A stretch of 39,777 nt of DNA from an uncultured Gammaproteobacteria bacterium (GTDB lineage Bacteria > Pseudomonadota > Gammaproteobacteria > Magnimaribacterales > Magnimaribacteraceae). The translations under genes and the position numbers were made by a program. Within the stretch, counting starts at the first letter, position 1. Every line of letters starts with the position of its first letter. The notes under the pieces were generated by a model. That model saw only the letters and a program-made list of their open reading frames with translations. It was not told the DNA's origin and ran no database searches. Location of the stretch: positions 1 through 39,777 of the forward strand of contig CAJWPI010000014.1 in the NCBI GenBank assembly GCA_913045055.1, written 5' to 3'. Positions 15,654 through 31,972 of the stretch are shown in pieces.

Positions 15654-15775
15654 TAATCTTCATGTAGAAAATACCTATAGAAATTTGCATCTAATGAGAA
15701 TAAGGAGCAAAATTAGTAGGTTATAGATATTTTAATTTAATTTTGTGAGGATACTACAAATTAAATGCTTTTTAT

Positions 15776-15785
15776 GGGGGGAGAA
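15776..15785 (+). promoter_or_regulatory. Poly-G ribosome-binding site deciding the receptor start
   Basis: Six Gs followed by AGAA immediately precede the ATG at 15786. Two earlier in-frame ATGs (15765, 15774) exist, but the second lies against the G run and neither has its own site. The signal peptide reads cleanly only from 15786. The layout parallels the eight-G leader at 11485-11492. Confidence 0.65.
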
Positions 15786-18341
15786 ATGAATAAAATAATA
15801 AAGTTTATACTGGTAACAGCACTCTCTGTAACCTCTTTTGGTTATTTAAGTGCTGAAAAAACGGAGCAAGTAGAGGAAATTATTGTAACAGCTCAGAAAA
15901 GGGAATCTAGCTTACAAGATACTCCAATTGCAATAACTGCTTTTAATGAAAGTACTTTAGAACAAAAAGGTGTTTCTAATTTCTACGATATAGGACACTC
16001 AGTACCTAATCTTCTAATAAATAAACAACCCGCTAGTAATAATAACGCTGGTTTTGCGATTAGAGGGTTTTCTTCTGGTGAAACTCAGTTACTTATGGAT
16101 CCTAAAGTAGCAGTTTATTTAGATGGGGTATATTTAGCGCGTATGACAGGAACAGTCTTTGAAATTATAGACTTAGAGAGAATAGAAGTACTAAGGGGAC
16201 CTCAAGGAACTTTACAAGGGAGAAATTCTATTGGTGGTGCTGTTAATATTATTTCTAAAGCACCCAGTGGAGAATTCTCTTTTAAAGGTAAGCTTTCTGC
16301 AGGAAATTTTGGTCTAAACAAGTTTAATGCTTCTTTAGATACAGATAAATGGGGAGCTTTAAGTGCTAAATTTTCTGTGGCTACAACCGATAGAGAAGGT
16401 TTCATGAAAAATACGGTTGCCCCTTCAATCAATCCATATAGAGAACTGGGAGATGATGATAGACAGGGCTACCGAGTAGCTTTACGTTTAGATCATGATA
16501 CCTGGACTCTAGATTATGTCTTTGATAGAGAAGAATCAGAAAGTAATGCTATGCCTTTTCAAATGACATGGGTAAATGACATGCACGTTATGTTAGGAGG
16601 AAAAGAGTTTTCTTCATTAAAAGCCCGAATTGGTAACAATCCACTAAAAAGAAAGAAATATTTTGAACTTGACGCAACGGGTCCTGAATTTGTTGAAGTT
16701 CAAGGAGAAAAAATTACTTATAACCAAGAATTAGGTGAAAGAAATAATCTTAAAGTGATAGCTGCTCATAGAGAGTATGACTCTCAACCTACTGGAACAG
16801 ATCTCGATGATGGCGCTTATGTATTGCACTCCGGCGGAGTCAATAATTTTCCTGCTAACACTCTTGGTTTTCCTTTATTTCATGCAGCTGATTCAAAAAA
16901 AGGTCAAGAACAAGATAGTTTTGAGGTACAACTAGTAGGCGAAGTGGGTGATCTTAAATATGTATTTGGAGGATATTATTTTGAAGAAGAAGTTTGGGAA
17001 ACTAATCCACAATACTTTTCTCTTCCAGGTCCATTCCTAGCCGCTTCTTCTCCAACAACTTGTGCAGGACCTCCCTTTTCTTTTTTAGGTCTTTGTAACT
17101 TTGGAGCTACAGCTCCTTTAGGTGCTCCGCTTTTTGAGTACGGAGGTGATACAGAATCAACAGCCTATTTTATGCATTTTGATTATGCTGTTTCTGATAC
17201 CCTAAATGTTCAATTAGGTCTAAGGCATACAGAAGATAAGAAGTCAGCCTATATGACCCACACAAATTTACTCGCTAGACAACAAGGATTGAGAACGGCA
17301 TTTAGTAATATCCCTTCTGGTGCTCCTGGAGTAAGTTTACTTGCAGCTTTACAAGCAGGAGGTACCCTACCAGCTAATTGGCCTTTTGATTTACCTTTAA
17401 GGGATGAAGATGAATGGACTAATACTAGTGGTGAGTTAGCTTTTATTTATAGACCTACTGAAGATCTAACTTACTATGCTAAATATTCAACTGGTTATAA
17501 TTCTGGTGGATTTAATGCTAGAACAAACGGTCTGATTTCAACTTCAACAGGGATTCCTGGTATAGATTTGTATGCTCCTTTATTTAATACACCATTTGAT
17601 GAGGAGACAGTAGAATCTACAGAACTAGGTATAAAAGCTAGTTTGATGGATAAAAAGCTTCAAATAAATCTAGCTGTATTTGCTATTGACGGTGAAGATA
17701 TGCAGCAAGCTGAGTTTATTGCTGATTCTTCTGGAGCTACTTCAAGAACAGCTAATACCGGTGAAGAAACCCATGATGGTTTTGAGATAGAAGCAACCTA
17801 TGTACCTACTCCTGGTCTGATTATCAATTTTGGTTATGGAGAAACAGATGTCGACATTAAGAGTTATCCATATAGGTGTACTGATGCTGCTTGTGCTCCT
17901 TTAGGTATTTATGGACAAGTCTTAGATGGTACAAATGCTGCTCAAATGGCTCAAATAGGTAAAAACCCTGCCAAGAAAGGGTTTTCTGGTGATGGAAGTG
18001 CAACACTGGGAGTACAATATGAATCAAATCCTATTGATCTTGGTACTCTTATTTACCGATTAGATGTTAATTGGAGAGATGCTGTAGCATTCCACCCTTT
18101 TGACTATGGTCCTTTATTTGGTCCTGATCAAAAAGCTCATACGCTTGTAAATGCAAGAATTACACTTGCAGACATGGCAACTAGTGTAGGAGATGGAACC
18201 TTGGAATTATCTGTGTGGGGTAAGAACCTTACTGACGAAGAATTTATTAACTGGGGTATTAATTTTGGAGGTCTTGGATTTGCAGGTGGAACTTTTAATG
18301 CTCCAAGAACCTTTGGAGTTGATGTTTCAGTTAGATTTTAA
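15786..18341 (+). CDS. TonB-dependent receptor (candidate uptake protein of the steroid-like locus)
   Basis: An 851-aa outer-membrane receptor. Residues 1-23 (MNKIIKFILVTALSVTSFGY then LSA) form a standard signal peptide. The plug starts at EEIIVTAQKRESSLQDTPIA and includes RIEVLRGPQGTLQGRNSIGGAVNI. The barrel ends with NLTDEEFINWG and the C-terminal VDVSVRF, which has the expected final Phe. A cysteine-containing loop (TCAGPPFSFLGLC) is probably extracellular. Receptors of this form without a siderophore context are common in bacteria that take up bulky carbon substrates. It converges on the steroid-like operon and shares its terminator, so it is the natural candidate for importing that pathway's substrate. 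The substrate itself is inferred from context only. Confidence 0.94.
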   Translation: MNKIIKFILVTALSVTSFGYLSAEKTEQVEEIIVTAQKRESSLQDTPIAITAFNESTLEQKGVSNFYDIGHSVPNLLINKQPASNNNAGFAIRGFSSGETQLLMDPKVAVYLDGVYLARMTGTVFEIIDLERIEVLRGPQGTLQGRNSIGGAVNIISKAPSGEFSFKGKLSAGNFGLNKFNASLDTDKWGALSAKFSVATTDREGFMKNTVAPSINPYRELGDDDRQGYRVALRLDHDTWTLDYVFDREESESNAMPFQMTWVNDMHVMLGGKEFSSLKARIGNNPLKRKKYFELDATGPEFVEVQGEKITYNQELGERNNLKVIAAHREYDSQPTGTDLDDGAYVLHSGGVNNFPANTLGFPLFHAADSKKGQEQDSFEVQLVGEVGDLKYVFGGYYFEEEVWETNPQYFSLPGPFLAASSPTTCAGPPFSFLGLCNFGATAPLGAPLFEYGGDTESTAYFMHFDYAVSDTLNVQLGLRHTEDKKSAYMTHTNLLARQQGLRTAFSNIPSGAPGVSLLAALQAGGTLPANWPFDLPLRDEDEWTNTSGELAFIYRPTEDLTYYAKYSTGYNSGGFNARTNGLISTSTGIPGIDLYAPLFNTPFDEETVESTELGIKASLMDKKLQINLAVFAIDGEDMQQAEFIADSSGATSRTANTGEETHDGFEIEATYVPTPGLIINFGYGETDVDIKSYPYRCTDAACAPLGIYGQVLDGTNAAQMAQIGKNPAKKGFSGDGSATLGVQYESNPIDLGTLIYRLDVNWRDAVAFHPFDYGPLFGPDQKAHTLVNARITLADMATSVGDGTLELSVWGKNLTDEEFINWGINFGGLGFAGGTFNAPRTFGVDVSVRF

Positions 18342-18360
18342 TATTTCAGATACGTAAGAA

Positions 18361-18390
18361 AAAAGAGCGATTTTTTTCGCTCTTTTTTTT
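18361..18390. terminator. Bidirectional rho-independent terminator
   Basis: AAAAAGAGCG (18361-18370) pairs with CGCTCTTTTT (18379-18388) around a T-rich loop, with A and T runs on both sides. It ends the TonB receptor transcript on the plus strand. Read the other way, it overlaps the last codons of the KSI-like gene and ends the five-gene minus-strand operon. Confidence 0.85.
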
Positions 18391-18775
18391 ATTCAATTAC
18401 TTTTATACAACTTTGATCCCAAAAGGCTCGAGCAATATCGATATTTCCATTCTTATTAACTTTAAAATAATCAGTGACCTCTAGGTCCATACCTTTTCCA
18501 TCGTTATCTCTTATTTGCATAGTAAAAGATACTAAAGCTTCTTCACCTAAATAGATTTCTTTATTGATTACTGGGGATAAAGTTGTAGATTGATCAAGAT
18601 GAGCATTATCCCAAAAACTAGCTATCTCCTTTAATCCAACATTTGGCTTACTTCCAACTGGATCTTCCCAAACTGACTCTTCGGTAAAAAGTAAAAGTAA
18701 TTTTTCTTTATCGTTCGTTCTCCAAGCTTGAAAATAATTTAGAACTGTTTCTTTAGTGATATTTTCAGGCGTCAT
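18389..18775 (-). CDS. Ketosteroid-isomerase-like SnoaL-fold protein
   Basis: A protein of 128 aa from the ATG at 18775; in-frame ATGs at 18790 and 18799 would extend it by 5 or 8 residues. It matches steroid Delta5-3-ketosteroid isomerase (KSI), the enzyme that moves the C5-C6 double bond to C4-C5. The general acid Tyr14 is in VLNYFQAW and the catalytic base Asp38 in WEDPVGSKP. Asp102 is in EVTDYFKV and the active-site Trp119 in RAFWDQ. Spacings match KSI: Tyr to Asp is 24 residues, and Asp102 to Trp is 17 as between the Pseudomonas Asp103 and Trp120. Length is close to the usual 125-131. It is the last gene of the kstD-like operon and overlaps the BaiE-like gene by 11 bp. A non-steroid isomerase of the same fold cannot be excluded. 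Confidence 0.78.
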   Translation of the reverse strand: MTPENITKETVLNYFQAWRTNDKEKLLLLFTEESVWEDPVGSKPNVGLKEIASFWDNAHLDQSTTLSPVINKEIYLGEEALVSFTMQIRDNDGKGMDLEVTDYFKVNKNGNIDIARAFWDQSCIKVIE

Positions 18776-19262
18776 CGATTTTTTTTCCATGTTCAGCAAG
18801 ATATTGAACTACTACTTTTGTTTTCGGGTTAGCAGGTTCTATTTCTTCCCATAATCTATCATATTCTGATTTTTTAATTTTCCAGTTACGATCTTCAAGA
18901 ACATATTGGTCCTTATAGATTGCGGAACCCCTAGTAATAGTCTTATGCTTTGTATCAGTAAAAGTATCACTTAAATACCAAATGCCTTGAGCAGTATGAA
19001 GTCCAGTTATTTCTATTTCAGGATGATGTCCTTGATGACATGCTAAAGCATCTGAGTGAAAGGCATTTGCAATCTGTTCTAAAATATCTTTTTTTCCTTT
19101 CACCTGCCATCTATAAGTCCCTCCTCTATAATCTAATGAGGCATCATCTGTAAAAAGAGTAGAGAGCAACTCCATGTCTGCCATATCTATACCACGAAAA
19201 TATCTATATTTTAATTTTTTAATTTCTTCTATATCTAATAATTTCTCTAATTTTGATTTCAT
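18765..19262 (-). CDS. BaiE-like SnoaL-fold dehydratase
   Basis: A 165-aa protein from the ATG at 19262, chosen because GAGGT lies 5 nt upstream; a TTG 12 bp earlier is a false extension. It resembles bile acid 7alpha-dehydratase BaiE (166 aa). The five BaiE catalytic residues, as I recall them, have counterparts here. They are Tyr21 and Asp26 in YRYFRGID (spacing 5, as in BaiE Tyr30/Asp35) and His76 in CHQGHHPEIEI. Asp99 is in WYLSDTF (23 residues later, as BaiE His83/Asp106), and Arg136 is in EYDRLWEE. The flanking GHHPEIEIT and GIWYLSD stretches also align. The family (SnoaL_4) is wider than BaiE, so elimination of water from a hydroxysteroid is a hypothesis supported by residues and operon context. 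It lies 15 bp after the SDR. Confidence 0.72.
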   Translation of the reverse strand: MKSKLEKLLDIEEIKKLKYRYFRGIDMADMELLSTLFTDDASLDYRGGTYRWQVKGKKDILEQIANAFHSDALACHQGHHPEIEITGLHTAQGIWYLSDTFTDTKHKTITRGSAIYKDQYVLEDRNWKIKKSEYDRLWEEIEPANPKTKVVVQYLAEHGKKIDDA

Positions 19263-19277
19263 CTTATACCTCAATTT

Positions 19278-20036
19278 CTATCTAACAAAAGCATGACCTC
19301 CATCCAAGGTAAGAGTTGCTCCAGTGATGTACTTACATTGCGGTCCTACTAACGCTACAACAGCCTGACCTATGTCCTCTTCACAATCGCCAATCCTGCC
19401 CAAAGGAATGGTTTCTTTAAAAGCTTTTGCTTCTTCAGGAAACATATCTTCCCACATGTCCATACCTGGAGAATTAGCTAAAGGTATTATGGTATTGACT
19501 CTAATGCCATCTTTACCCCATTCAACTGCTGTAGCTCTAGAAAGAGATCTTATTGCTTCTTTTACTGCTGTATAAGCACCAAAGCCCTTTGGATCGGGTC
19601 TTATAGCAGCTCCAGTTCCTAGATTAATTACACTTCCTTGGCTATCTTTTAAATAAGGATAGCAAAGTTTCATAAAACGAAGGGTTGCTAAAGGACCAGA
19701 TAACCAGGCCTGATTAAAAGCCTCATCTGTAATATCTAATACCTCTCCTAAAGGAACAATTTGTGCATTGTTTACCAAGATATCTATGGAGTTAAAGGTA
19801 CTTATAGTCTTCTTCACACAACTCTCTATATGTTCTTGATTAGTTACCTCACATTCCAATGCAATTCCTTTTCCACCTAATACTTCAATCTCTTTTATTG
19901 TTTCTTGTACTTTGGATAAAGTCCTTCCAGACGCAACAATTGATGCACCTGCTTTTGCCAATGCTATGGCTATCCCCTTACCTACTCCTTGTCCGGCTCC
20001 AGTAATAATTGCAACTTTGTCTTTTAAATCTTCCAT
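19278..20036 (-). CDS. Short-chain dehydrogenase/reductase
   Basis: A 252-aa classical SDR. The NAD(P) motif is TGAGQGVG (residues 11-18), followed by NNAQI at the position of the usual NNAG, and YTAVK supplies catalytic Tyr and Lys. The serine position reads NLGTGAA, so the catalytic Ser appears replaced by Thr with one extra residue before Tyr. The C terminus ITGATLTLDGGHAFVR is typical. Members oxidise or reduce secondary alcohols, and many hydroxysteroid dehydrogenases belong here. It lies 9 bp after the zinc dehydrogenase and 15 bp before the BaiE-like gene in the same operon. A 3-, 7- or 17-hydroxysteroid dehydrogenase role is plausible from context only. Confidence 0.88.
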   Translation of the reverse strand: MEDLKDKVAIITGAGQGVGKGIAIALAKAGASIVASGRTLSKVQETIKEIEVLGGKGIALECEVTNQEHIESCVKKTISTFNSIDILVNNAQIVPLGEVLDITDEAFNQAWLSGPLATLRFMKLCYPYLKDSQGSVINLGTGAAIRPDPKGFGAYTAVKEAIRSLSRATAVEWGKDGIRVNTIIPLANSPGMDMWEDMFPEEAKAFKETIPLGRIGDCEEDIGQAVVALVGPQCKYITGATLTLDGGHAFVR

Positions 20037-20045
20037 ATCAAATAA

Positions 20046-20984
20046 TTATATATCAGTATCAAACACAACCTTAATTGAACCGGTTTTTCTTTCCTTAGCA
20101 ACATTAAATGCTTCCTTAGCGGCATCTAATGGAAAACGATGAGTTATTAAGGTCTTACCTATTGAGGGGTTTAATGCCAGTAATTCTACTGCTCTCTCGA
20201 TATCTCTAGTTCCATTTGTAACTCCATAAACCATAGAAGGAAAAATCCTTATTTCGTTTATCATCATAGGTACCCCTGGCAAATCTAGCCTATCCCAGGG
20301 TATTGCTAAAAGAATTAAGGTAGCTCCAGGAGCACAGCTTTCAATACATAAATCTATAGCATCTGGAGTTCCTGCACAATCTACTACCTTTTCATAAACC
20401 CCTTTTAATTCGGTTGCACCTAATTTTGCACCTGCCTCTTTTTGATGGTCATATCTTGCAGAAAGCCCTACTTCACAACCTAAATATTTTGCAGCAGCAA
20501 CTGCACAAAGCCCAACACTTCCTCCACCAATTACCGCTATTCTGTCCGTAGATTTAGTATTTGTTCTGAGAAGTCCGTGTAAAGCAACAGCTAAAGGCTC
20601 TACTAAAGAAGCGTCCTTTAAATCAATATTTTTATTCAAGGGTACAATGCAATACTCTGGAACTATCATCTGTTCTGTCATACCACCGTCTTTGTCAATA
20701 CCAAGAACTGCTGAGTCTCCTTGGCAAAGTTGGTAATCACCTCTTTTACAACATTCGCACTTACCACACCTTATAACTGGTTCTATAGAAACAGCCTGTC
20801 CACCTTCAGTAATCCCTGCAATTTCATGACCAGCTATATGGGGTGAATGCGCTCCAGCTTCAAGAAGATGGAGATCCGTTCCGCATATTCCAATTGAAGA
20901 AATGTTAACAAGCACTCCATCCCCTTTTGGACTAGGAGTAGTTACACAAAATACCTTTTTATCTGAATAATTAATTGCTTTCAT
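20046..20984 (-). CDS. Zinc-dependent alcohol dehydrogenase (MDR)
   Basis: A 312-aa medium-chain dehydrogenase, slightly short for the family. Catalytic zinc ligands are seen in CGTDLH and in GHE of HIAGHEIAG. The structural zinc knuckle is CGKCECCKRGDYQLC (Cx2Cx2Cx7C). The NAD(H) motif is GGGSVG, near residue 178. It would oxidise an alcohol to a ketone or aldehyde, or run in reverse. It starts 9 bp after the KstD-like gene and ends 9 bp before the SDR, so the three redox genes are one transcription unit. The substrate is not readable from sequence. Confidence 0.9.
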   Translation of the reverse strand: MKAINYSDKKVFCVTTPSPKGDGVLVNISSIGICGTDLHLLEAGAHSPHIAGHEIAGITEGGQAVSIEPVIRCGKCECCKRGDYQLCQGDSAVLGIDKDGGMTEQMIVPEYCIVPLNKNIDLKDASLVEPLAVALHGLLRTNTKSTDRIAVIGGGSVGLCAVAAAKYLGCEVGLSARYDHQKEAGAKLGATELKGVYEKVVDCAGTPDAIDLCIESCAPGATLILLAIPWDRLDLPGVPMMINEIRIFPSMVYGVTNGTRDIERAVELLALNPSIGKTLITHRFPLDAAKEAFNVAKERKTGSIKVVFDTDI

Positions 20985-20993
20985 TTTTATATT

Positions 20994-22709
20994 TTAGTTA
21001 TTAGATCCTGTTATATCTTTGGCAGCTAAATAACCAAAAGTCATAGCAGGTCCAAGAGTGGAGCCAGGACCAGGATATCTTGGTAATAAAGCTGTTGTAG
21101 TATTTCCACATGCCCATAAACCTTTTATGGCATTTCCTTCTCCATCAAGAACCCTAGAATTTTTATCAATAACTAAACCTCCTGCTGTTCCCATTTCACC
21201 AGGATACAAAACGACACAATAAAAGGGTGGTTTTTTTATTTCAGCTAAGCATGGATTGGGTTTAACTTCTGGATCGCCATAATATTTATCATAAACATTA
21301 TCTCCCCTTTGGAAATCTTTATCTTTTCCTTCTTTAGAATACTTGTTTACTTTATTAATAGTCTTTATTAGACCTTTAGAATCAACTCCAACCATATTAG
21401 CTAGCTCCTCTAATGAATTTGCTTTAGATAAGAAGTTAGGAGACCACCAAGACGTAGGAATCATAAAGTCTGGCATTAGTGAAGATTGCAAAATTGGACC
21501 ACAAGGTCTTTTTTTTCTAAATTCAGAATCAAAAATCATATAACAAGGTATGCAGGGATTTCCCTTGCTATATTTCTCATACATTTCGTCTACAAAACTT
21601 ACATAATTTTGTGATTCATTAGAAAATCTTTCACCTTCTTTATTTACACAGAAATTTCCAGGAAGTGATTTATCAACCATAGACAGTCTAGCTTTTTTCT
21701 CTCCAGGAACTATCATAACAGTTGACCACCATGCACTATCCATCTGATGAACTTGAGCTCCTATTTTTATAGAAGCACTTATAGCATCTCCTGTATTGTA
21801 AAGATTTGCAGCACTCCATTCTTGTTTAGAAGGATTAGGTAAGTACTTATCACGCATTTCTTGATTTTTTTCAAAACCTCCGGAAGCTAAAACCACACCT
21901 CGGTTCGCTTTAATATAAACTGTTTCTTTATCCTTTCGAGCTTTTATTCCCATAACCCTATTCTCTTTTGTAATTAGATCTAGGAACTCTGTTTCCAACC
22001 ATAAAGGAATATTTCTGTCATTGAGAGAAAGCTTAAGTCTAGCTATTCCTGCATTTCCCATTGTCAATCTCCTATCCCGTGAAGATGTTAATCTAAATGG
22101 AAAATCAAAAATGAACTTTAAGAGTAATTTTAAGAATAAACCAGTCCACCCCTTTAAAGCTCCAAGTAAGATCTGGCCTTCAACCTGGGTGAAATTAATT
22201 CCCAGTGGTCCTACTGTTTGTGGGTGTTGGGGTCTTAGAGATTTAAATTCATCTTTTAATAACGATCCATCTACAGGTTCAGGTTCCATAGACCTATGTC
22301 CATCTTTTCCTCCTGGATCATCAGGGAAATAGTCAGGGTAATGCTCTAAAGACTGATATCTAACTCTTGAATTATCATGAAGGTAATCTATCATTTCAGG
22401 TCCCTTTTCAAGATAAACATCAATTAACTCCTCTTTTATCTTTCCTTTTGGAGAAACGTACTGGATATACGTTTTAGCATCTTGGATTGAATCAATTGCT
22501 TTTGCTTCCTTAGCATACCTGTTGTTCGGTATCCATACTCCTCCACCTGAAGAGGCACTAGTCCCACCATATTTATCAGACTTTTCTATTAGAACAACTT
22601 TAGCACCATGATCATGTGCAACAAGACCTGTTGTCATAGCTCCATTTCCAGAACCTATAACCACAACATCAAATTCATAATTCCAATTTAAGCTGTCAGT
22701 TAATTCCAT
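20994..22709 (-). CDS. KstD-like FAD-dependent 3-ketosteroid dehydrogenase
   Basis: A 571-aa flavoprotein of the 3-oxosteroid 1-dehydrogenase/fumarate-reductase-like family. The FAD-binding GSGNGA lies at residues 19-24, with IEKSDKYGGTSASSGGGVW following. The C-terminal RYPGPGSTLGPAMTFG holds Tyr545 and Gly549, matching the Tyr/Gly pair of Rhodococcus KstD1 that polarises the 3-keto group. FSNESQNY supplies a further Tyr at a position expected for the family. The enzyme would introduce a double bond into ring A (Delta1 or Delta4). The ATG at 22709 is preferred to the adjacent TTG. It heads the five-gene operon and is divergent from the Rieske oxygenase gene. Generic FAD dehydrogenases of this superfamily act on other substrates, so the steroid call rests on motifs plus context. 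Confidence 0.82.
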   Translation of the reverse strand: MELTDSLNWNYEFDVVVIGSGNGAMTTGLVAHDHGAKVVLIEKSDKYGGTSASSGGGVWIPNNRYAKEAKAIDSIQDAKTYIQYVSPKGKIKEELIDVYLEKGPEMIDYLHDNSRVRYQSLEHYPDYFPDDPGGKDGHRSMEPEPVDGSLLKDEFKSLRPQHPQTVGPLGINFTQVEGQILLGALKGWTGLFLKLLLKFIFDFPFRLTSSRDRRLTMGNAGIARLKLSLNDRNIPLWLETEFLDLITKENRVMGIKARKDKETVYIKANRGVVLASGGFEKNQEMRDKYLPNPSKQEWSAANLYNTGDAISASIKIGAQVHQMDSAWWSTVMIVPGEKKARLSMVDKSLPGNFCVNKEGERFSNESQNYVSFVDEMYEKYSKGNPCIPCYMIFDSEFRKKRPCGPILQSSLMPDFMIPTSWWSPNFLSKANSLEELANMVGVDSKGLIKTINKVNKYSKEGKDKDFQRGDNVYDKYYGDPEVKPNPCLAEIKKPPFYCVVLYPGEMGTAGGLVIDKNSRVLDGEGNAIKGLWACGNTTTALLPRYPGPGSTLGPAMTFGYLAAKDITGSNN

Positions 22710-22762
22710 CAATCAATAAAATAACTTAAGAAGAGTTTATATTAAAGACTTTCTTATACTTA

Positions 22763-22768
22763 TATAAT
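22763..22768 (+). promoter_or_regulatory. Sigma70-type -10 element (TATAAT) for the Rieske gene
   Basis: A perfect TATAAT lies 27 bp before the GTG start of the Rieske gene, in the 85-bp divergent spacer with the KstD-like operon. No good -35 was seen 16-18 bp upstream. GAGGAG at 22778-22783 is the likely ribosome-binding site. Confidence 0.5.
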
Positions 22769-22794
22769 ACTTTTTGTGAGGAGAAAAAAAGAAA

Positions 22795-23781
22795 GTGAGT
22801 AGATTTCCAATGCCAATACCCCACGGATGGTATTTTGTTTCATATTCAGATGATTTGGATGCAGGTCAATCTAAACCTCTGCATTATTTTGATACTGAAC
22901 TTGTATTATTTAGAACTGAAGATGGAAATCCAGTTCTTATGGAAGCTTACTGTCCTCATATGGGAGCTCATCTTGGTCATGGTATACATGAAAACACAGG
23001 TCAAGGAGGTCGTATTAAAGATGATACTATTTCATGTCCCTTCCATGGTTGGACCTTTAATTCAGAAGGTTTTGTTGTAAACATACCTTATGCCGACAAT
23101 ATACCCAATAAAATTAAAGATAAGAAATGTATAAGAACTTTCCCTGTTAAAGAGGTTAATAAAACTATTATGGCTTGGTATCACCCCAAGCAAAAAGAGC
23201 CATTATGGGAAGCAGTACAATTTAACGAAACCGAGGATAAAAACTGGACTGATTTTGATAAATATGAGTATAAATTTAATGCTCACCTTCAAGAAACAGC
23301 TGAAAATGGAGCTGATTCAGCACATTTTGTATACGTTCATGGCACCTCTACTTTACCTGAATGGGAATTCACCTATGAAAATCATAAAAGAACGGGTGTT
23401 ATGAAAGCCAAAATGCCAACTCCAAGAGGTGAGGTTGACGGAGCAATTAATATATTCGGACATGGCCCAGGGCAAAGCGCAACGAGATTTACTGGAATAT
23501 GTGAAACATTCCTTATGGGCTTACCAACGCCTATAAATGCAGAAGAGATGGAATTAAGGTTTGCTTTTAGTCAACAAAAAGAGAATGGTGAAAGTCCTAA
23601 AGGCGGAGTTGCTGCAGCAATAATTGCTGATATAAATAAACAAGTACAAGAAGATATACCAATATGGGAAAACAAAAAATTCTTAGCAAACCCAATACTT
23701 TGTGCTAAAGATGGACCTATAGCTCAATTTAGGAAGTGGTTTCAGCAATTTTATAGTGAAAAATGGAAAGAAATTTCTTAA
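22795..23781 (+). CDS. Rieske non-heme iron oxygenase, alpha subunit (KshA/Neverland-like)
   Basis: A 328-aa oxygenase starting at GTG with GAGGAG 11 nt upstream. The Rieske [2Fe-2S] ligands are Cys53/His55 in CPHMGAHLGH and Cys81/His84 in CPFHGW. The mononuclear iron site is ENGADSAHFVYVH (Asp174, His177, His182). The spacing between His55 and Cys81 is 25 residues, longer than the usual 15-17, because of a GIHENTGQGGRIK-type insert. The single-component alpha layout with HFVYVH resembles 3-ketosteroid 9alpha-hydroxylase (KshA) and sterol 7-desaturase (Neverland/DAF-36). No dedicated reductase gene is adjacent, so electrons must come from another protein. It is divergent from the KstD-like operon, and its last 4 bases overlap the convergent DUF1295 gene. 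Confidence 0.86.
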   Translation: MSRFPMPIPHGWYFVSYSDDLDAGQSKPLHYFDTELVLFRTEDGNPVLMEAYCPHMGAHLGHGIHENTGQGGRIKDDTISCPFHGWTFNSEGFVVNIPYADNIPNKIKDKKCIRTFPVKEVNKTIMAWYHPKQKEPLWEAVQFNETEDKNWTDFDKYEYKFNAHLQETAENGADSAHFVYVHGTSTLPEWEFTYENHKRTGVMKAKMPTPRGEVDGAINIFGHGPGQSATRFTGICETFLMGLPTPINAEEMELRFAFSQQKENGESPKGGVAAAIIADINKQVQEDIPIWENKKFLANPILCAKDGPIAQFRKWFQQFYSEKWKEIS

Positions 23782-24650
23782 CTTTTTGGAGGCCACAACA
23801 TTAGTTGAGAGGTTTTCTTCATATAATCTGCATAATCAGATCTTTTCTCTAAACTTCTATTATCCATCATTGAACAAGTGGCTAAAGTAAACATTAGCGT
23901 CATAGAAAGTGGACATATAATAAGCCACCAATAGTTATGATCTAATGACAAAACCATCAAATACAATCCCCACCAAAAAAGAGCTTCTCCTAAATAATTG
24001 GGATGACGAGAATATTTCCATAAACCTGTTTGCATAGTTTTAGCACTATTAGAAGGATCTTTTTTAAATTTTTTCATTTGTTCATCTGCTACATGCTCCA
24101 GAACTACACTTAATATTGTAAAAATACTGCTTAGATATAGAAATAGATTAGGTTTTACAGTAGAAACAGATAAGATAAAATAAATTGGAAAAAGAGAAAT
24201 ATTTACTTGTAAAGTTGGGTATATATGAATACCTGTAAAATCAATAATATATGGATTTTTATTAAATTTATTCTTTAAGTCTATATATCTAAAATCTTCA
24301 TGACCTAATCCCTCCCATTGTCGAATCCAATTTATGGTAAGTCTAAAACTCCAATAGGTTATAGGAACTAGGACTAAAAAAATCTTTTCTGAATTAATTT
24401 CACCTGAAACTGGCCAAAAAGCTAAATATAAAGCTATTGGTAAGGGCGCAACAGACCAGAAAGGATCATAAAGACTGGAATTTTTATTATAAACACTGAA
24501 AATAAAAACACATAAAGTTGCTGCTATGTGTCCAATGCTAATTGATATCCACTGATGAAGGCCAAGAGAACTATAAGTCGAAAGAAACGCAACTACAAAG
24601 CTAATACAGTACACCCAACCACATAAAATAAAGCTTTTGCTTCTATTCAT
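23778..24650 (-). CDS. DUF1295 / steroid 5-alpha-reductase-superfamily membrane protein
   Basis: A 290-aa integral membrane protein with about six to seven hydrophobic segments. The signature KYSRHPNYLGEALFWWG lies near residue 220, and the C-terminal DYADYMKKTSQLMLWPPK matches the NADPH-binding end of DUF1295. The superfamily includes steroid 5alpha-reductase and sterol reductases, which reduce ring double bonds with NADPH, and isoprenylcysteine methyltransferases. Bacterial members are mostly uncharacterised. It begins 12 bp after the fbiC stop on the same strand, so it is probably co-transcribed with an F420 biosynthesis gene. It converges on the Rieske gene with overlapping stops. A reductase of the steroid-like pathway is the simplest contextual reading. 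Confidence 0.8.
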   Translation of the reverse strand: MNRSKSFILCGWVYCISFVVAFLSTYSSLGLHQWISISIGHIAATLCVFIFSVYNKNSSLYDPFWSVAPLPIALYLAFWPVSGEINSEKIFLVLVPITYWSFRLTINWIRQWEGLGHEDFRYIDLKNKFNKNPYIIDFTGIHIYPTLQVNISLFPIYFILSVSTVKPNLFLYLSSIFTILSVVLEHVADEQMKKFKKDPSNSAKTMQTGLWKYSRHPNYLGEALFWWGLYLMVLSLDHNYWWLIICPLSMTLMFTLATCSMMDNRSLEKRSDYADYMKKTSQLMLWPPKS

Positions 24651-24662
24651 TATTTTTATGAT

Positions 24663-27074
24663 TTATATAGATTTAGACTCTATAAGGTTACTATTTTTTA
24701 TTTGCCTATTAACTAGTTCATTTTTAATAGGTTTAAGTGGCTTATTTAGATTCTTTTGATTTAACTCAGAACTTGTAATTCTTTTATATAAAGTATTTCT
24801 TTGAACTGGTTTCCTTCCAATAGACTTTATAAAACTTCTCATGTCATAAACAGAAAATTCCTGGCCATGCTCAGCACCAGCAGCTCGAGTTATAGATTCA
24901 TTCATTAAAGTTCCTCCAATATCATTTGCTCCTGCCTCTAGGCACTTTTGAATTCCAGATATACCCATTTTTACCCAGGATGTTTGTATATTCTTTATGT
25001 TAGGGTACAAGGACAAACGAGCAATGCTGTGCATAAGTACAGACTCTCTTAGTGTAGGACCGAAACGTGATTTTCCTCTAAGGAACATAGGTGCTTCCAT
25101 AGGTACAAAAGGCAGGGGTACAAATTCAGTAAAACCCATACTTTTGTTCTGAAGGTCTCTTATCTTTATAAGATGTCTAGCCCAATGCAAAGGCTTATCG
25201 ATGTGTCCAAACATTATTGTAGCTGTGGAATTAATTCCAATTTCATGTGCACTTTCCATAACTTCTAACCATTCTCTGGAATTGATTTTATCTTTACAGA
25301 TAATTTGCCTAACTTCATCATCCAATATTTCTGCTGCCGTTCCAGGTAAAGTCTTTAACCCCAGATCTTTTAAATCTTTTAAAAATTCAGATATGGATAC
25401 TCCAAGTGTTTTTGCACCTTGTGATATCTCAAGAGGCGAAAAAGCATGAATATGGAGGTCAGGGATTTCGTGTCTAATAGATTTGACTATGTTTTTATAA
25501 GTATTTCCAGTATATGCGGGGTGTATGCCTCCTTGCAGACAAACTTCTGTAGCTCCTCTATCATAAGCCTCTTTGCACCTTCTTACTATCTCTTCTAAAG
25601 AAATATCATAAGGTTTTCCTCTTAGTTTCTCTGAAGTTTTACCTTTTGAAAATGCACAAAAAGTGCAATGGAAGTAACAAATGTTAGTGTAATTGATATT
25701 TCTATTAATTACGTAAGAAACATCTTTGTTATTTATATCAGAACATAATTCATGAGCCGCTTCTGTTACATATTCAAAATCTGGTCCTCTGGCATCAAAC
25801 AATTCAACAATTTCTCTCTCTGAAAGAAGCTCTAATTGGTGAACCTTTTTTATATGGTTCCTAAATCTTGTTGATTTCCTTATTTGAATTATCTTATTAC
25901 TTGTAATAATAGATTCTTCTTTTATATCTCCTCTTCCTGTGGACCAACTATCTTCTCTAGAATACCCTGAAGAATCAGATAACTTTAATACTCTTGGCTG
26001 AATATCTTTATCAACCCAGGTTTCTAGATCTTCAATATATTTTGGATAGATAGTAAGTCTAGGTAGTAATATCTTTCCGGAAAGAAGTGTTTGATTAGAA
26101 AGATTTGTTAAATGAGGCCAAGGAGCTTCTGGGTTTACAAAATCTGGTGTAATGGGAGATACCCCTCCCCAATCATTAATTCCAGCTTTAAGTAATAGAT
26201 CTAGATTATGAGGACTTAAGTTGGGGGGTGCCTGAATACTCATAGCAGGTCCAAAAATTAATCTAGCTACAGCAATAGTCCATAACAAATCTTCAACTAA
26301 AGGAGCTTCATAGTCTGACATTTTAGTATCAGGTTTAGGTCTAAAGTTTTGAATTATTACTTCTTGAATATGTCCATACTTTGAATGTAATTCCCTTATA
26401 TCTAAAAGTGATTGTATTCTTTCAAGTCTAGTTTCTCCGATACCGATAAGTATTCCTGTGGTAAATGGAATTTTCTTCATACCTGCATTACGAAGAGCTT
26501 CTAACCTTCTTTTTGGATCCTTATCTGGAGAACCAAAATGGGGACCTCCCCTTTCGCTTAATCTTTTAGAAGAACTTTCTAACATAATTCCCATAGATGC
26601 AGATACGGGTCTCAAAAAATCTAATTCTTCTAAATCCATGCAGCCTGGATTTAGATGGGGAAGAAGGCTGGTTTCAGATAGAACAGCTTCAGCTGCTGTT
26701 TGGAGGTATCTTAAAGTACTATCATGTCCTAATTGGCTTAGAGCTTTCCTGGCAGTTGAATATCTTAATTCTGGTCTTTCTCCTAAAGTAAATAAAGCTT
26801 CCTTACAACCAGTCTTTTCAGCCTGTTTAGCTAAATTAATAATATCCTGAATGGGCATATAGGGAGGCTTATTATTTCTTTTTGGAGTCTTTGCAAAAGT
26901 ACAATAATGGCAAACATCTCTACATAAGTGAGTTAACGGAATAAAGACTTTAGGTGAGTAAGTTATAAATGACCCAAAACCTTGATAGGTCAATTCTGAA
27001 GCTTCCTGCATTAGAAGATCAGTGTTTGTCTCTTTAGCTAAAAGTAACGCTTCCTTGTTATTTAGATCATTCAT
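24663..27074 (-). CDS. fbiC: FO synthase, CofG-CofH fusion
   Basis: An 803-aa fused radical-SAM enzyme that makes the deazaflavin chromophore FO from tyrosine and 5-amino-6-ribitylaminouracil. The N-terminal CofG half carries Cys51, Cys55 and Cys58 in LCRDVCHYCTFAK. The C-terminal CofH half carries Cys466, Cys470 and Cys473 in ICYFHCTFCAFSKGK. CofG landmarks GERPELRY and FRPKPDTKM, and the CofH landmark LPGTAAEILDD, are all present. The order (CofG then CofH) and the length of about 800-850 match actinobacterial FbiC, whereas archaea have two separate genes. Both cluster motifs are intact. It is divergent from the LLM oxidoreductase gene across 60 bp and lies 12 bp upstream of the DUF1295 gene. 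Confidence 0.95.
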   Translation of the reverse strand: MNDLNNKEALLLAKETNTDLLMQEASELTYQGFGSFITYSPKVFIPLTHLCRDVCHYCTFAKTPKRNNKPPYMPIQDIINLAKQAEKTGCKEALFTLGERPELRYSTARKALSQLGHDSTLRYLQTAAEAVLSETSLLPHLNPGCMDLEELDFLRPVSASMGIMLESSSKRLSERGGPHFGSPDKDPKRRLEALRNAGMKKIPFTTGILIGIGETRLERIQSLLDIRELHSKYGHIQEVIIQNFRPKPDTKMSDYEAPLVEDLLWTIAVARLIFGPAMSIQAPPNLSPHNLDLLLKAGINDWGGVSPITPDFVNPEAPWPHLTNLSNQTLLSGKILLPRLTIYPKYIEDLETWVDKDIQPRVLKLSDSSGYSREDSWSTGRGDIKEESIITSNKIIQIRKSTRFRNHIKKVHQLELLSEREIVELFDARGPDFEYVTEAAHELCSDINNKDVSYVINRNINYTNICYFHCTFCAFSKGKTSEKLRGKPYDISLEEIVRRCKEAYDRGATEVCLQGGIHPAYTGNTYKNIVKSIRHEIPDLHIHAFSPLEISQGAKTLGVSISEFLKDLKDLGLKTLPGTAAEILDDEVRQIICKDKINSREWLEVMESAHEIGINSTATIMFGHIDKPLHWARHLIKIRDLQNKSMGFTEFVPLPFVPMEAPMFLRGKSRFGPTLRESVLMHSIARLSLYPNIKNIQTSWVKMGISGIQKCLEAGANDIGGTLMNESITRAAGAEHGQEFSVYDMRSFIKSIGRKPVQRNTLYKRITSSELNQKNLNKPLKPIKNELVNRQIKNSNLIESKSI

Positions 27075-27134: not shown

Positions 27135-28016
27135 ATGAAATTTGGATATCACCCTGTAATGTGTAACCCTGAGTATTATATTCCACTTGCAAAAGCAGCA
27201 GAAGATGCTGGTTTTGAAGATTTTGCCTTCCCCGATAGTATATGTTTTCCGCAATCTCCGTCTGTTTCTAAATATCCTTATAACGAAGATGGAAAAGGTG
27301 GTTTTTTAGAAGACATACCTTTTTTAGAACCTTTCTCTGCTATACCAGCTCTTGCATCTCACACCAAAAAAATTACCTTTTCTACACACGTAATGAAACT
27401 TCCAATCAGACAACCCGTTTTGGTTGCTAAACAAGTAGCTACAGTTGCTGTTATGACGAACAACAGATTTAAATTTGGTGTTGGTTTGAGTCCATGGAAA
27501 GAAGATTTTATTGTAACTCAAGAAACATGGGATGAGAGAGGTAAGCGTATGGATGAAATGATAGAAATCATATACGGACTCTTAGAGGGAAATTTCTATT
27601 CATTTAAAGGTAATTTTTATGAAATACCTTCTATTAAAATTTGTCCTGTACCTACTATAAAAGTTCCTATTTTGATGGGTGGACATAGTGAGCCAGCATT
27701 AATCAGAGCAGCCAAATATCTAGATGGATGGATGAGCGCAGGCTTAGATTTTGAAACAAATAAAAAAATAGTAAACCGTTTAGATGAATTAAGAAAAGAG
27801 TTTGGAAGAAGTGATAAAGATTTTTATCAAGTTACTATGGGTCCAGATTGTTATGAACCTGATGGAGTCAAAAGACTAAGTGAGTTAGGTATTGATGAAT
27901 GTGTCATAGCATTTAGAGATATATATACAGGCAGTGAAGATAATAGAACTTTAGATTCGATGATAGGAGAAATTAACAGTTTTGGAGATACAGTAATAAA
28001 GAATGTGAATGGTTAA
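27135..28016 (+). CDS. LLM-class F420-dependent oxidoreductase
   Basis: A 293-aa TIM-barrel protein of the luciferase-like monooxygenase class. Features include MKFGYHPVMCNPEYY at the N terminus, LAKAAEDAGFEDFAFPD, FSTHVMKLPIRQPVLVAKQ and the cofactor-site stretch FGVGLSPWKEDF. The form is closest to the subgroup of F420-dependent LLM proteins known from mycobacteria, and its location inside an F420 cluster supports F420 over FMN as cofactor. These enzymes transfer hydride between F420H2 and an alcohol, imine or enone. It is divergent from fbiC and converges on the hydrolase gene with no gap (stop 28014-28016, next stop at 28017). Confidence 0.88.
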   Translation: MKFGYHPVMCNPEYYIPLAKAAEDAGFEDFAFPDSICFPQSPSVSKYPYNEDGKGGFLEDIPFLEPFSAIPALASHTKKITFSTHVMKLPIRQPVLVAKQVATVAVMTNNRFKFGVGLSPWKEDFIVTQETWDERGKRMDEMIEIIYGLLEGNFYSFKGNFYEIPSIKICPVPTIKVPILMGGHSEPALIRAAKYLDGWMSAGLDFETNKKIVNRLDELRKEFGRSDKDFYQVTMGPDCYEPDGVKRLSELGIDECVIAFRDIYTGSEDNRTLDSMIGEINSFGDTVIKNVNG

Positions 28017-28946
28017 TTATATATTGTCTAAAAGAAATGAAACTGAGTCTCTCATAGATTTCTTTCTAGCTTTCCAATTCCCTCCTAAATGAGCTCCAAC
28101 TTTAGCTCTATCTTTAAATAGTTTAGCTCTTTCATGAGGTTCGTTCATTAAGTATCTTTTGCCTTCATTATTTTCATAATAATGAATACCATCTTTTCCA
28201 ATAATGGTGTGTTTATGTCCTACTGCTATTGCGTTAGGAATAAAAGTTACAGGGTCTATTGCGTCGAAAGAATGATGACTATCTTTATAACAGATCAGCT
28301 TACAGTTTCCTCCGTTTTGATTTATAGCTGGAGATAATTTTTCAATTAAAATTGAAGGAGTGTAATCATCATCTTCACCAATTAGATTTAGAATTGGAGA
28401 GTTGCTCCATCGCATTTCTTCTGGCCAAATAAATGCACCAGGGTAGAAAGCTATATGACCAGCAAATCTTTCTCCTTCAGGGGCAAGTTTTTCTGTTAAA
28501 GGTTCCCAAGCGGAATAAAGAGCTGTGCTACCTCCCAAACTCCATCCTGTAATAAAAATTTTCTTTGCATCTATATCAGGATGTTTAGATAATATTTGTA
28601 AAGCTTTAAAACAATCAGTTAAAACTGTAGCCAAAGTAACTTGCATCTGGTCCTCTACTATTGAAATTACCTGTCTAGCATCGAAGCTGCTAACTCTAAA
28701 AATTGCAAATCCATTGTTTAGAAAGTTAACTGCATGTTCGTGATGGTGTCCTCTCCAACCTAAACTCCCATGCATGCAAATAACAAGAGGATAGATTTTC
28801 TTCTTTTTTTCTGGAAAGATTAAAGTACCAAACATATCCTGCTCTTCTACTTTCTTAGAATTTAAAATATGGAAAAACTCAAAAGGATTAGAGGACTTAT
28901 AAGAAATAACCCCCTGGTCTCCTGATTGTAGTTTGGAACTATTCAT
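28017..28946 (-). CDS. Dienelactone-hydrolase-like alpha/beta hydrolase
   Basis: A 309-aa hydrolase. The oxyanion region is ICMHGSLGWRGHHHEH (near residue 57), and the nucleophile elbow GWSLGGS gives Ser136. A candidate acid is in IGEDDDYTPS (near residue 195) and the histidine in KDSHHSFDAIDP (near 228). There is no signal peptide. The form is that of dienelactone hydrolase (DLH) proteins acting on lactones or esters. Its ATG overlaps the end of cofC by 8 bp, so it is the fifth gene of the F420 operon. A DLH-like enzyme has no known step in F420 biosynthesis, so it more likely belongs to the catabolic pathway that uses F420. That is inference. Confidence 0.82.
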   Translation of the reverse strand: MNSSKLQSGDQGVISYKSSNPFEFFHILNSKKVEEQDMFGTLIFPEKKKKIYPLVICMHGSLGWRGHHHEHAVNFLNNGFAIFRVSSFDARQVISIVEDQMQVTLATVLTDCFKALQILSKHPDIDAKKIFITGWSLGGSTALYSAWEPLTEKLAPEGERFAGHIAFYPGAFIWPEEMRWSNSPILNLIGEDDDYTPSILIEKLSPAINQNGGNCKLICYKDSHHSFDAIDPVTFIPNAIAVGHKHTIIGKDGIHYYENNEGKRYLMNEPHERAKLFKDRAKVGAHLGGNWKARKKSMRDSVSFLLDNI

Positions 28947-29592
28947 TTTTAATCGAATTAATATATTCTTTTACATTAGTATAGCCGCTTTTTTTTATTA
29001 ATTTACTTAAATCAGCATCGCGATCAATATCAAATTCTAATTTCTTAGATCTGTATAGTCTTACCTGTATCCCTGCTCGGTGAGCTGTTTCTAAATGGGC
29101 AAGACAGCTTCCAGGACCATACTTAAATTTTATGAGATCAGGTGGTGTGCAAACCATACAATTAGTGCCTTCTCCTTCTGAATCAGGAGAAATAGTTATT
29201 CCTTGTTTATAGGTTTTAATTAATTTTTTATGTTTTTTGGCCACTGATTGAAGGATTGATGAGCTAGTTCTAGGTATATCTCCATGAATTATTAAAATCC
29301 CCTTTGCACCTCCCTTAATTGCTCTCTTAGATGCTTCTGTTATACCATTATTTAAACCTGGTTTCTTTTGTAAGAAAGCTTTAAAGCCTAGTTTTTTTAC
29401 ATAATCAATTACATTACTGTCTTCAGTAACAATTAAATAATTTGTAAACAATTTACTTTTTCTTTGGCTTAAAAGAATTCTTCCGAGCATAAACTTCACC
29501 AGAACCCTTCTATCTTCTAAAGTAAGGACATCACCAAGTCTACTCTTTGGTCTTTTAAAAGATTTAATTGGTGTTATTGCCCACAAAGACAT
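28939..29592 (-). CDS. cofC: 2-phospholactate/phosphoenolpyruvate guanylyltransferase
   Basis: A 217-aa nucleotidyltransferase that activates a three-carbon phospho-acid with GTP for transfer to FO. The N terminus MSLWAITPIKSFKRPKSRLG holds the substrate-binding Lys/Arg set, and LTLEDRRVLVKFML follows. The catalytic HGDIPRTSS and ISPDSEGEGTNCMVCTPP segments are the family signatures. The C-terminal GSCLAHLETAHRAGI fits. Whether it uses 2-phospholactate, phosphoenolpyruvate or 3-phosphoglycerate cannot be read from the motifs. It starts 2 bp after the cofD stop and overlaps the hydrolase gene by 8 bp. Confidence 0.9.
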   Translation of the reverse strand: MSLWAITPIKSFKRPKSRLGDVLTLEDRRVLVKFMLGRILLSQRKSKLFTNYLIVTEDSNVIDYVKKLGFKAFLQKKPGLNNGITEASKRAIKGGAKGILIIHGDIPRTSSSILQSVAKKHKKLIKTYKQGITISPDSEGEGTNCMVCTPPDLIKFKYGPGSCLAHLETAHRAGIQVRLYRSKKLEFDIDRDADLSKLIKKSGYTNVKEYINSIKNE

Positions 29593-29594
29593 AA

Positions 29595-30521
29595 TTAAAA
29601 ATATTCTATACAGAACTTAGCAAGATGTTGTTTATCTTTATTGTTTCTCATAACTATTGATTCTACATATGTCTGCATTTTAATCTCCTCTTTTAAACCC
29701 TTGTCTTCATGGTCTATAACTAATGCATCTGCTATCTCTTCATAATGCTTATCAATGAGAACAGGCGAAGGTTCTTTATTAAGCTCATAGGCTATCTTAG
29801 CTGAAGGACCTTTTATTGCATCGTTCTTTATATAAGGGGAAATTGCTAATACTTTAAAATTCCTATTAATTAGAAAATCTTTTAAAGGTTTTATGGATAA
29901 AATGGGGTCTATACTAAGAAAAGGATTTGAAGGGCAAATAATTACTCCTTCTATTCCTTTTGACTCTATTAGTTGCTCTAAAATAGGTGGAAGTTGCGCT
30001 TCTTCACATCCACTAAATTCTATTGATAGAACTTGCGGTTCACATTTCTTTTTTACGAAGTATTCTTGAAATGAAAGTAATCCTTCGTTTGTTTGAATTA
30101 AAGTCCTTACTGGGGTCTCTGACATTGGCACTATGAGGTTATTCACTCCTAATTTAGATTTCAAAAAGTTTGTTACTTCTGACAGGCTCTTACCTTGTTG
30201 CAATAATGTGGTTCTAATAATGTGAGTAGCTAGATCTCTATCCCCTAATTGAAACCAGTCCTCACCTTCAAAAACTTTTAGTTGGTTTAAAAAAGCCCAA
30301 GTCTCTTTTTCTACTCCCCAACCTTTTTTTCTGTCGTTAATTCCAGCTAAAGTATAAGTAACTGTATCTAGATCAGGACTTATATTGAGACCATAATGAA
30401 TAAAATCATCACCTGTATTTACTAGATTTATTAAATTCTCGTCAGGAATTATTTGAGACAAACCATAAACTAATTTAGCACCTCCGATACCCCCACAAAG
30501 AGTTAATATAGTTCTGGTCAT
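29595..30521 (-). CDS. cofD: 2-phospho-L-lactate transferase (F420-0 synthesis)
   Basis: A protein of 308 aa from the ATG at 30521, which lies one base after the cofE TAA. A TTG or ATG reading from 30545 inside cofE is unlikely. It moves the activated phospho-acid onto FO to give F420-0 or dehydro-F420-0. Seen motifs are LTLCGGIGGAKLVYGL (residues 6-21), VNTGDDFIHYGLNISPDLDTV, GWFQLGDRD-like DWFQLGDRDLATHIIRT, and CPSNPFLSIDPIL. All are standard for CofD/FbiA. An ISPYIKNDAIKGPSAKI stretch near the C terminus is also conserved. Length is normal for the family. Confidence 0.94.
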   Translation of the reverse strand: MTRTILTLCGGIGGAKLVYGLSQIIPDENLINLVNTGDDFIHYGLNISPDLDTVTYTLAGINDRKKGWGVEKETWAFLNQLKVFEGEDWFQLGDRDLATHIIRTTLLQQGKSLSEVTNFLKSKLGVNNLIVPMSETPVRTLIQTNEGLLSFQEYFVKKKCEPQVLSIEFSGCEEAQLPPILEQLIESKGIEGVIICPSNPFLSIDPILSIKPLKDFLINRNFKVLAISPYIKNDAIKGPSAKIAYELNKEPSPVLIDKHYEEIADALVIDHEDKGLKEEIKMQTYVESIVMRNNKDKQHLAKFCIEYF

Positions 30522-30522
30522 T

Positions 30523-31938: not shown

Positions 31939-31972
31939 ATGTTTACCTTTAGGCTGTTTAGTTTGATTGCGT

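Follow-up and report, generated by a model that had tools for sequence, protein, structure and literature searches.

A stretch of DNA from an uncultured Gammaproteobacteria bacterium raises the question of why enzymes resembling those of steroid catabolism should lie side by side with genes for the biosynthesis of cofactor F420, and whether the two gene sets form one inherited system. The window, by which we mean the whole stretch of 39,777 nucleotides (nt) analyzed, spans positions 1 to 39,777 of contig CAJWPI010000014.1 (assembly GCA_913045055.1; Magnimaribacterales, Magnimaribacteraceae). The order appears to correspond to SAR86, and the source bacterium is probably marine. An earlier note on the window had singled out positions 18389–24650 as a candidate undescribed locus for steroid or triterpenoid transformation. 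That unit is real but too small, as synteny and an empty site in a relative give an extent of about 15.7 to 32.8 kb. Absent from the earlier note, and directly beside the steroid operon, is a complete F420 cassette (CofGH, CofC, CofD, CofE, and NpdG) plus an oxidoreductase of the luciferase-like monooxygenase (LLM) class. We give a probability of roughly 0.6 to the reading that this locus belongs to an aerobic 9,10-seco steroid-degradation system inherited together with its own F420 supply, the role of which we infer. The genes concerned are as follows, with SDR denoting short-chain dehydrogenase/reductase.

18389..18799, minus strand: SnoaL_2 / ketosteroid isomerase-like protein (solved relatives and catalytic positions)
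18765..19274, minus strand: SnoaL_4 / BaiE-like protein, putative 7-hydroxysteroid dehydratase (Protein Data Bank (PDB) match BaiE and catalytic positions)
19278..20036, minus strand: SDR oxidoreductase (Pfam adh_short_C2)
20046..20984, minus strand: zinc alcohol dehydrogenase (ADH), a lineage-specific operon member (Pfam ADH_N)
20994..22712, minus strand: KstD-like flavoprotein, 3-ketosteroid Delta1-dehydrogenase-like (PDB 7p18 match, catalytic positions)
22795..23781, plus strand: KshA-like Rieske oxygenase, divergent (Pfam KshA_C, PDB KshA 4qdc)
23778..24650, minus strand: DUF1295 / steroid 5alpha-reductase-superfamily membrane protein (Pfam)
24663..27074, minus strand: CofGH (FbiC), fused FO synthase (NCBIfam PRK09234, 1079 bits, cut-off 1018)
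27135..28016, plus strand: LLM-class oxidoreductase near TIGR03619, the F420-dependent type; divergent (164.2 bits, cut-off 166.9)
28017..28946, minus strand: dienelactone hydrolase-like alpha/beta hydrolase (Pfam DLH)
28939..29592, minus strand: CofC (129 bits, cut-off 105)
29595..30545, minus strand: CofD (270 bits, cut-off 257)
30523..31287, minus strand: CofE (283 bits, cut-off 181)
31291..32001, minus strand: NpdG, NADPH:F420 oxidoreductase (191 bits, cut-off 150)
32030..32782, plus strand: SDR accompanying NpdG, its neighbor in most related loci

In profile searches, CofGH, CofC, CofD, CofE, and NpdG each score above the curated cut-off. The DUF1295 gene, convergent with the Rieske gene, lies 12 nt downstream of CofGH and is, by position, part of the F420 operon.

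The two gene sets are mostly present or absent together. Among 203 genomes of the order, searched at thresholds of E <=1e-20 for CofGH, E <=1e-40 for KstD, and E <=1e-25 for KshA, CofGH and KstD occur in 35 genomes each; 32 carry both, three carry CofGH only (G007, G011, and G015, all of genus g2), three carry KstD only (G120, G127, and G139), and 165 carry neither. HsaC was likewise found in 35 genomes, 30 of them shared with CofGH, and KshA homologs of the window Rieske protein in 33, with 29 shared, the latter being restricted to the same five genera as KstD. Because the genomes of the order are related, the genus is the fairer unit of comparison: of 22 genera, five carry the full set of four markers, CofGH by itself is found in one and KstD by itself in none, and 16 have none of the markers (p 2e-4).

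Where both are present, they are usually neighbors. In 27 of the 32 genomes, no more than 7 kb separates KstD from CofGH (in G107 as judged from a KstD fragment); in the other five the two genes are on different contigs (G106, G111, G112, and G119) or 50 kb apart (G130). Gene order in the relatives is collinear across two families and runs PdxJ-SnoaL2-SnoaL4-SDR-KstD ... DUF1295-CofGH-CofC-CofD-CofE-NpdG-SDR, apart from insertions, minor losses, and a rearrangement in G130. The window-type SDR adjoins KstD in all 20 KstD-bearing related loci, ADH intervening in L013, and DUF1295 stands beside CofGH in the related loci that hold CofGH, except L077. The zinc ADH has homologs in G006 (60% identity) and, at the corresponding site, in G017 (55%), and in none of the loci read from family f2. 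In f2, the position of the Rieske gene is taken by a gene for an NMO-like flavoprotein, DUF1295 is preceded by a gene for an M20 peptidase, and the closest homolog of the window Rieske protein (51–55%) lies about 9–12 kb from CofGH, on its other side, wherever a single contig covers both. Conserved synteny rules out that the steroid and F420 genes are chance neighbors.

The block can also be absent as a whole. In G005, a single-contig genome, HSP20-SDR3 directly abuts TauE-QOR-PdxJ-Grx4, and the segment that would match 15.7–32.8 kb of the window (~17 kb) is absent. At this site G017 still has the ADH gene, DUF1295, and a beta-lactamase-like gene; in three f2 genomes (G035, G038, and G053) the stretch read shows CofE next to PdxJ as its sole cof gene. 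In our view the genes of G017 and the lone CofE genes are remnants, so that an old locus since lost is more likely than one gained repeatedly.

Some cassettes are incomplete in a more specific manner. Two cassettes that are intact in other respects, in G127 (L096:2607-4114) and G001 (L209:11607-15778), cleanly lack CofGH and retain CofC, CofD, and CofE, although the G001 contig ends within CofE; these two genomes may rely on FO from other cells or carry cofGH elsewhere in unassembled sequence. The CofE gene beside PdxJ in genomes without CofGH is seen at L213:8589-9350 (228 bits, cut-off 181) and also in L214 and L215. As for mobility, CofGH matched 77 of 72,556 plasmid records, all at <60% identity, giving no sign of recent transfer by plasmids.

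That this is a steroid locus is well supported by its protein sequences, whose best reading is that they are KstD, a ketosteroid isomerase, a BaiE-like 7-dehydratase, and KshA. Each family assignment of the earlier note holds up, with scores above the respective Pfam gathering thresholds (124 bits to KshA_C for the Rieske protein). Among proteins of solved structure, the KstD-like flavoprotein is closest to a 3-oxosteroid 1-dehydrogenase (7p18, 510 bits), followed by other 3-ketosteroid dehydrogenases (279 bits) and fumarate-reductase-like flavoproteins (<=125 bits); the Rieske protein is closest to KshA (4qdc, E 3.3e-34), and the SnoaL_4 protein to BaiE (4l8p, E 8.6e-23). For the SnoaL_2 protein this comparison is less clear-cut, as the steroid Delta-isomerase 1ocv (E 8.2e-9) ranks second, close behind the SnoaL-like protein 6p3l (E 5.3e-9). 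The DUF1295 protein contains the Steroid_dh domain of Pfam (29.9 bits, cut-off 22.6) and matched no PDB sequence up to E 1. The SDR at 19278..20036 is a probable hydroxysteroid dehydrogenase with a presumed steroid substrate.

Catalytic positions, aligned with orthologs from 21 loci of relatives, are intact throughout. The KSI-type (ketosteroid isomerase) Tyr/Asp/Asp, which we take to be Tyr14/Asp38/Asp99, is kept in all 18 sequences aligned (that of the window and 17 others). The BaiE-type Tyr/Asp/His/Asp, presumably Tyr30/Asp35/His83/Asp106 of the BaiE/Hsh2 7alpha-hydroxysteroid dehydratase, is kept in 20 of 20, as are both histidines of the motif, so that the choice of His83 is immaterial. 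The KstD-type Tyr/Tyr/Tyr/Gly, Y119/Y318/Y487/G491 in the numbering that we assume, is kept in 21 of 21. The KstD assignment itself rests on profile and sequence scores, and no biochemistry on the window proteins was found in the literature searched. Together with conserved gene order, the solved relatives and catalytic positions back the proposal of the earlier note that the enzymes act in one steroid pathway.

The window locus is most likely one part of a full steroid-degradation system, the remainder of which is encoded elsewhere. In the source genome (G000, 83.6% complete), an HsaC-like dioxygenase gene on contig C11 adjoins IpdA-, IpdB-, EchA20-, and IpdC-like genes, acyl-CoA dehydrogenase genes, and a thiolase gene. 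The best PDB match of the dioxygenase is 2zi8, deposited as a probable BphC, which we take to be HsaC of Mycobacterium tuberculosis; that of the IpdA-like CoA transferase is 6co6, deposited as a probable CoA-transferase alpha subunit and presumably an actinobacterial IpdA. The names IpdB, EchA20, and IpdC-like rest on Pfam type and gene order, IpdB having no Pfam match. In the f2 genome G123 the cluster runs on through HsaD-, HsaE-, HsaG-, and HsaF-like genes to KshA and FadD3, and clusters similar to it by BLAST are present in G056, G059, and G130, the G059 stretches stopping before FadD3.

The KshA-like oxygenase of the f2 steroid clusters is split in two genes in all four clusters read (L201:12504-13771, L202:6379-7677, L203:2526-3820, and L204:18583-19848). 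The first gene codes for a Rieske protein of 132–145 amino acids with the cluster ligands and the second for a catalytic protein of 281–288 amino acids whose own Rieske part is apparently degenerate, domains having been assigned by Pfam for L202. The L202 cluster also encodes an EthD-domain protein (L202:14345-15037); an EthD domain is likewise reported for the 7beta-hydroxysteroid dehydratase Hsh3 (PMC12175502).

LLM-family enzymes are the candidate users of F420 in this system. Counted by PF00296, with some matches being fragments, they number 4–9 in ten CofGH-positive genomes vs 0–2 in ten that lack CofGH, including three with a lone CofE; G001, with 10 LLM matches, CofC, CofD, and CofE, and no CofGH match, was excluded from this comparison. 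In f2, an LLM gene lies between the HsaF-like gene and KshA in four of four clusters read (at L202:7764-8642 in one of them). At the HsaA loci of KstD/F420 genomes, a homolog of the window LLM protein lies 5–7 kb away in three of five (G056, G059, and G123); these homologs, from three f2 genomes, are its closest (54–56%). The HsaA-locus stretches of G006 and G189 contain no such homolog; in G006, another LLM gene adjoins KstD paralogs. That F420 serves steroids solely is ruled out by the g2 genomes: as they have F420 and LLM genes without steroid genes, the cofactor has other uses too.

Does the association extend beyond the order? Among 368 other genomes of the class, 13 have CofGH, five have strong IpdA (E below 1e-90), and two have both (2/13 with CofGH vs 3/355 without; p 0.011); with IpdA taken at E 1e-30, seven have IpdA and three have both. 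LLM matches number 8 and 10 in the two genomes that have strong IpdA and CofGH, and 1, 1, and 2 in the three that have strong IpdA without CofGH. We also read the best 80 of 578 CofGH loci, from named genomes and with flanks of up to 10 kb, often shorter. Homologs of the NpdG-side SDR (50–57% identity) lie near NpdG or CofE in 15 of these 80, and one locus, L110, has the same gene order as order member G011. In two, a KSI-like gene with the triad, as judged by eye, directly follows CofGH (Litorivivens lipolytica, L125:12520-12963; Spongiibacteraceae, L188:7469-7969).

A case from a different lineage comes from Sterolibacterium denitrificans, in which, according to a figure legend, CofC, CofD, and CofE genes directly precede ACS3 and a steroid Delta-isomerase gene, the run then continuing with enoyl-CoA hydratase, SDR, and acyl-CoA dehydrogenase genes (PMC6678751). 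As far as that legend goes, this adjacency is an independent case of cof genes beside steroid genes. In M. tuberculosis, an F420-dependent-type oxidoreductase, Rv3520c, is listed with the cholesterol genes (PMC6429209, PMC12855090) and is given as one of the cholesterol enzymes in one of these papers (PMC12855090). It is tempting to generalize that the breakdown of steroid rings, in SAR86 and independently elsewhere (Sterolibacterium, possibly mycobacteria), employs F420H2 as a working cofactor, with LLM enzymes of hsa/ksh clusters reducing dienones or enones, but we hold this broader proposal only tentatively and at somewhat less than even odds.

Several points weigh against a steroid system with its own F420 supply. 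Because the members of an order are not independent samples, p values computed per genome overstate the association. G127 has the whole KstD operon and CofC, CofD, and CofE, cleanly without CofGH; conversely, genus g2, with CofGH in G007, G011, and G015 and CofC, CofD, and CofE only in G001, is without KstD, HsaC, and KshA matches, and its members G001, G007, and G011 carry 7–10 LLM-family matches and no steroid markers. Beyond the order, the IpdA-positive genomes G415, G434, and G552 have no CofGH match, and KstD was found in the fetched flanks of 0 of the best 80 CofGH loci. Scores fall short in places: the window LLM protein lies 2.7 bits under the TIGR03619 cut-off and so is not a member by score, KstD reaches 541 bits under an NCBIfam equivalog cut-off of 788, and the HsaC-like dioxygenase of G000 reaches 290 bits under a cut-off of 450. 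Profile searches did not find HsaA in G000 or G130; the HsaA matches in six of eight KstD/F420 genomes searched (0 of 6 order members without KstD) are all under the cut-off, and HsaB at E 1e-20 matched 0 of 14 genomes, eight of them KstD/F420 genomes. For calibration, 14 well-known genomes yielded matches in one case with the HsaC model, 10 with PF00296, six with HsaB, and 0 with HsaA.

Some of these points lend weight to the most serious alternative, that the steroid operon has no functional tie to the F420 cassette, both being catabolic luxuries of one ancestral neighborhood that were lost together through genome streamlining. The F420 genes kept by g2 without steroid genes and the empty tally among the 80 CofGH loci would fit such a history, as would the disappearance of the block as a whole in G005. 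We nonetheless consider it unlikely, given that in f2 LLM genes sit inside an hsa/ksh cluster at a distant locus, that IpdA and CofGH are associated in the class-wide sample too, that KstD without CofGH occurs in just 3 of 203 genomes, and that cofC, cofD, and cofE lie in the Sterolibacterium cholesterol cluster, as its published legend depicts it (PMC6678751).

Less probable still, and by a good deal, is a shorter route that merely modifies steroids or triterpenoids, as the earlier note had surmised from the lack of meta-cleavage genes. It was correct that the window itself has none, no ring-cleavage dioxygenase being recognized among the window proteins scanned, but we reject the short route because HsaC-like, IpdA-like, and other HIP-type (methylhexahydroindanedione propionate) genes are present elsewhere in the same genome. 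KstD and HsaC, moreover, co-occur in 33 of 203 genomes, with two and two carrying one without the other. The remaining idea, that homologous chemistry is directed at another polycyclic or alicyclic substrate (a carotenoid or terpenoid fragment or an algal aromatic), draws on the breadth of all these families and the unmet KstD equivalog cut-offs and is very improbable in view of an operon that combines several independent families of steroid type, their catalytic positions intact, and of genes resembling IpdA and HsaC, for which we take the best solved relatives to be the steroid enzymes.

How might a steroid-degradation system with its own F420 supply operate? The following scheme starts from what the sequences show, which is the gene content, the conservation of catalytic positions, the synteny, and the joint presence and absence of the two sets; we infer the substrate, the order of the reactions, and the use of F420 by LLM enzymes on steroids. 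The SDR and ADH enzymes would turn a hydroxysteroid into its 3-ketone. The KSI-like protein would shift the Delta5 bond to Delta4, and the BaiE-like protein would eliminate a 7-hydroxyl group to give a 4,6-dien-3-one. KstD (Delta1) and KshA (9alpha-hydroxylation) would then open ring B, and ring breakdown would be completed through the HsaC-like and ipdAB/echA20/ipdC-like genes that lie outside the window. The cassette would meanwhile make F420, NpdG would reduce it with NADPH, and LLM-class enzymes might use F420H2 on steroid intermediates. One specific guess is that they reduce an activated C=C, e.g. the extra Delta6 bond left by 7-dehydration, before KstD and KshA act. Some LLM-type enzymes, such as Fgd, run in the reverse direction, and the LLM enzymes considered here may do so as well.

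Set against known systems, the locus is familiar in its parts. Like aerobic 9,10-seco catabolism in Comamonas, Rhodococcus, and Mycobacterium, it and its genome feature KstD, KshA, KSI, HsaC, IpdAB, EchA20, and IpdC-like genes, with HsaA- and HsaD–G-like genes in relatives; it differs in a front end tied to F420 biosynthesis, in LLM genes in or near the relatives' clusters, and in the failure of HsaB to match in 14 genomes. A SnoaL_4 protein with the four catalytic positions is shared with the Delta4,6 bile-salt variant described for Sphingobium Chol11 with Hsh2/BaiE (PMC12175502), from whose published account the present locus departs in that the BaiE-like gene shares an operon with KstD and the KSI-like gene and adjoins an F420 cassette. 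The CofGH fusion, CofC, CofD, CofE, and NpdG are as in many gammaproteobacterial loci, whereas their union with a steroid operon in one locus differs from proteobacterial F420 biosynthesis as laid out in a 2021 review (PMC8498797).

The claim that the locus is undescribed thus survives in part. Steroid-ring degradation genes in SAR86 are already in print (PMC4810484, PMC11582366), with kstD, kshA, and hsa genes reported in a small number of SAR86 genera (PMC11582366); the F420-linked arrangement is, within the literature searched, the new element, namely a steroid pathway inherited as one block with its own F420 supply. F420 occurs 0 times in the main text of the SAR86 isolate steroid paper, and the portion of the literature on SAR86 and F420 that we consulted contains nothing about F420 in SAR86. 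The review speaks of reductases that use F420H2 in biodegradation and of bacteria reducing F420 at the expense of NADPH; the words steroid and cholesterol occur in it 0 times, and it counts the question of why Proteobacteria make F420 as unanswered (PMC8498797). If the proposed link is true, F420 would gain a physiological role in Proteobacteria, and if F420 is needed, marine steroid turnover would depend on a cofactor unmentioned in the main text of the SAR86 steroid paper. The block occurs in probably abundant ocean bacteria, and the LLM genes in relatives' steroid clusters make one reaction class testable. A BaiE-type dehydratase within a KstD/KSI operon, for its part, points to 7-hydroxylated steroid substrates and would widen the known pathway.

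The layout of the steroid operon agrees with what had been described: five minus-strand genes in the order KstD-like (22712-20994), zinc ADH (20984-20046), SDR (20036-19278), SnoaL_4 (19274-18765), and SnoaL_2 (18799-18389), a divergent Rieske gene, and the 5alpha-reductase-superfamily gene at 23778-24650 on the minus strand. Successive gaps measure 9, 9, and 3 nt, followed by the overlap of SnoaL_4 and SnoaL_2; the SDR–SnoaL_4 gap becomes 15 nt if SnoaL_4 begins at its own first ATG. The operon ends against two further features.

15765..18341, plus strand: TonB-dependent receptor (Pfam Plug and barrel), convergent with the steroid operon
18357..18390, no strand assigned: shared bidirectional terminator hairpin (sequence reading and folding on both strands)

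The terminator that the earlier note had assigned jointly to the operon and the receptor gene is borne out by a hairpin in the 47-nt gap, with A and T runs and folding on both strands (z -5.2 and -4.8); a terminator pattern scan did not list it, and it was seen by reading the gap sequence. The receptor is a possible importer. In the related loci compared, no TonB receptor occupies the same site, except for a 36% similar one in L090. Elsewhere in the window, the gene at 2560-4563 combines TPR repeats and a sulfotransferase domain in a single protein. A DUF1214 gene and a sulfotransferase gene at 34828-37079 form a pair that recurs in relatives, close to HsaC in G006 (L105) and, in L015 and L090, close to the SDR on the NpdG side.

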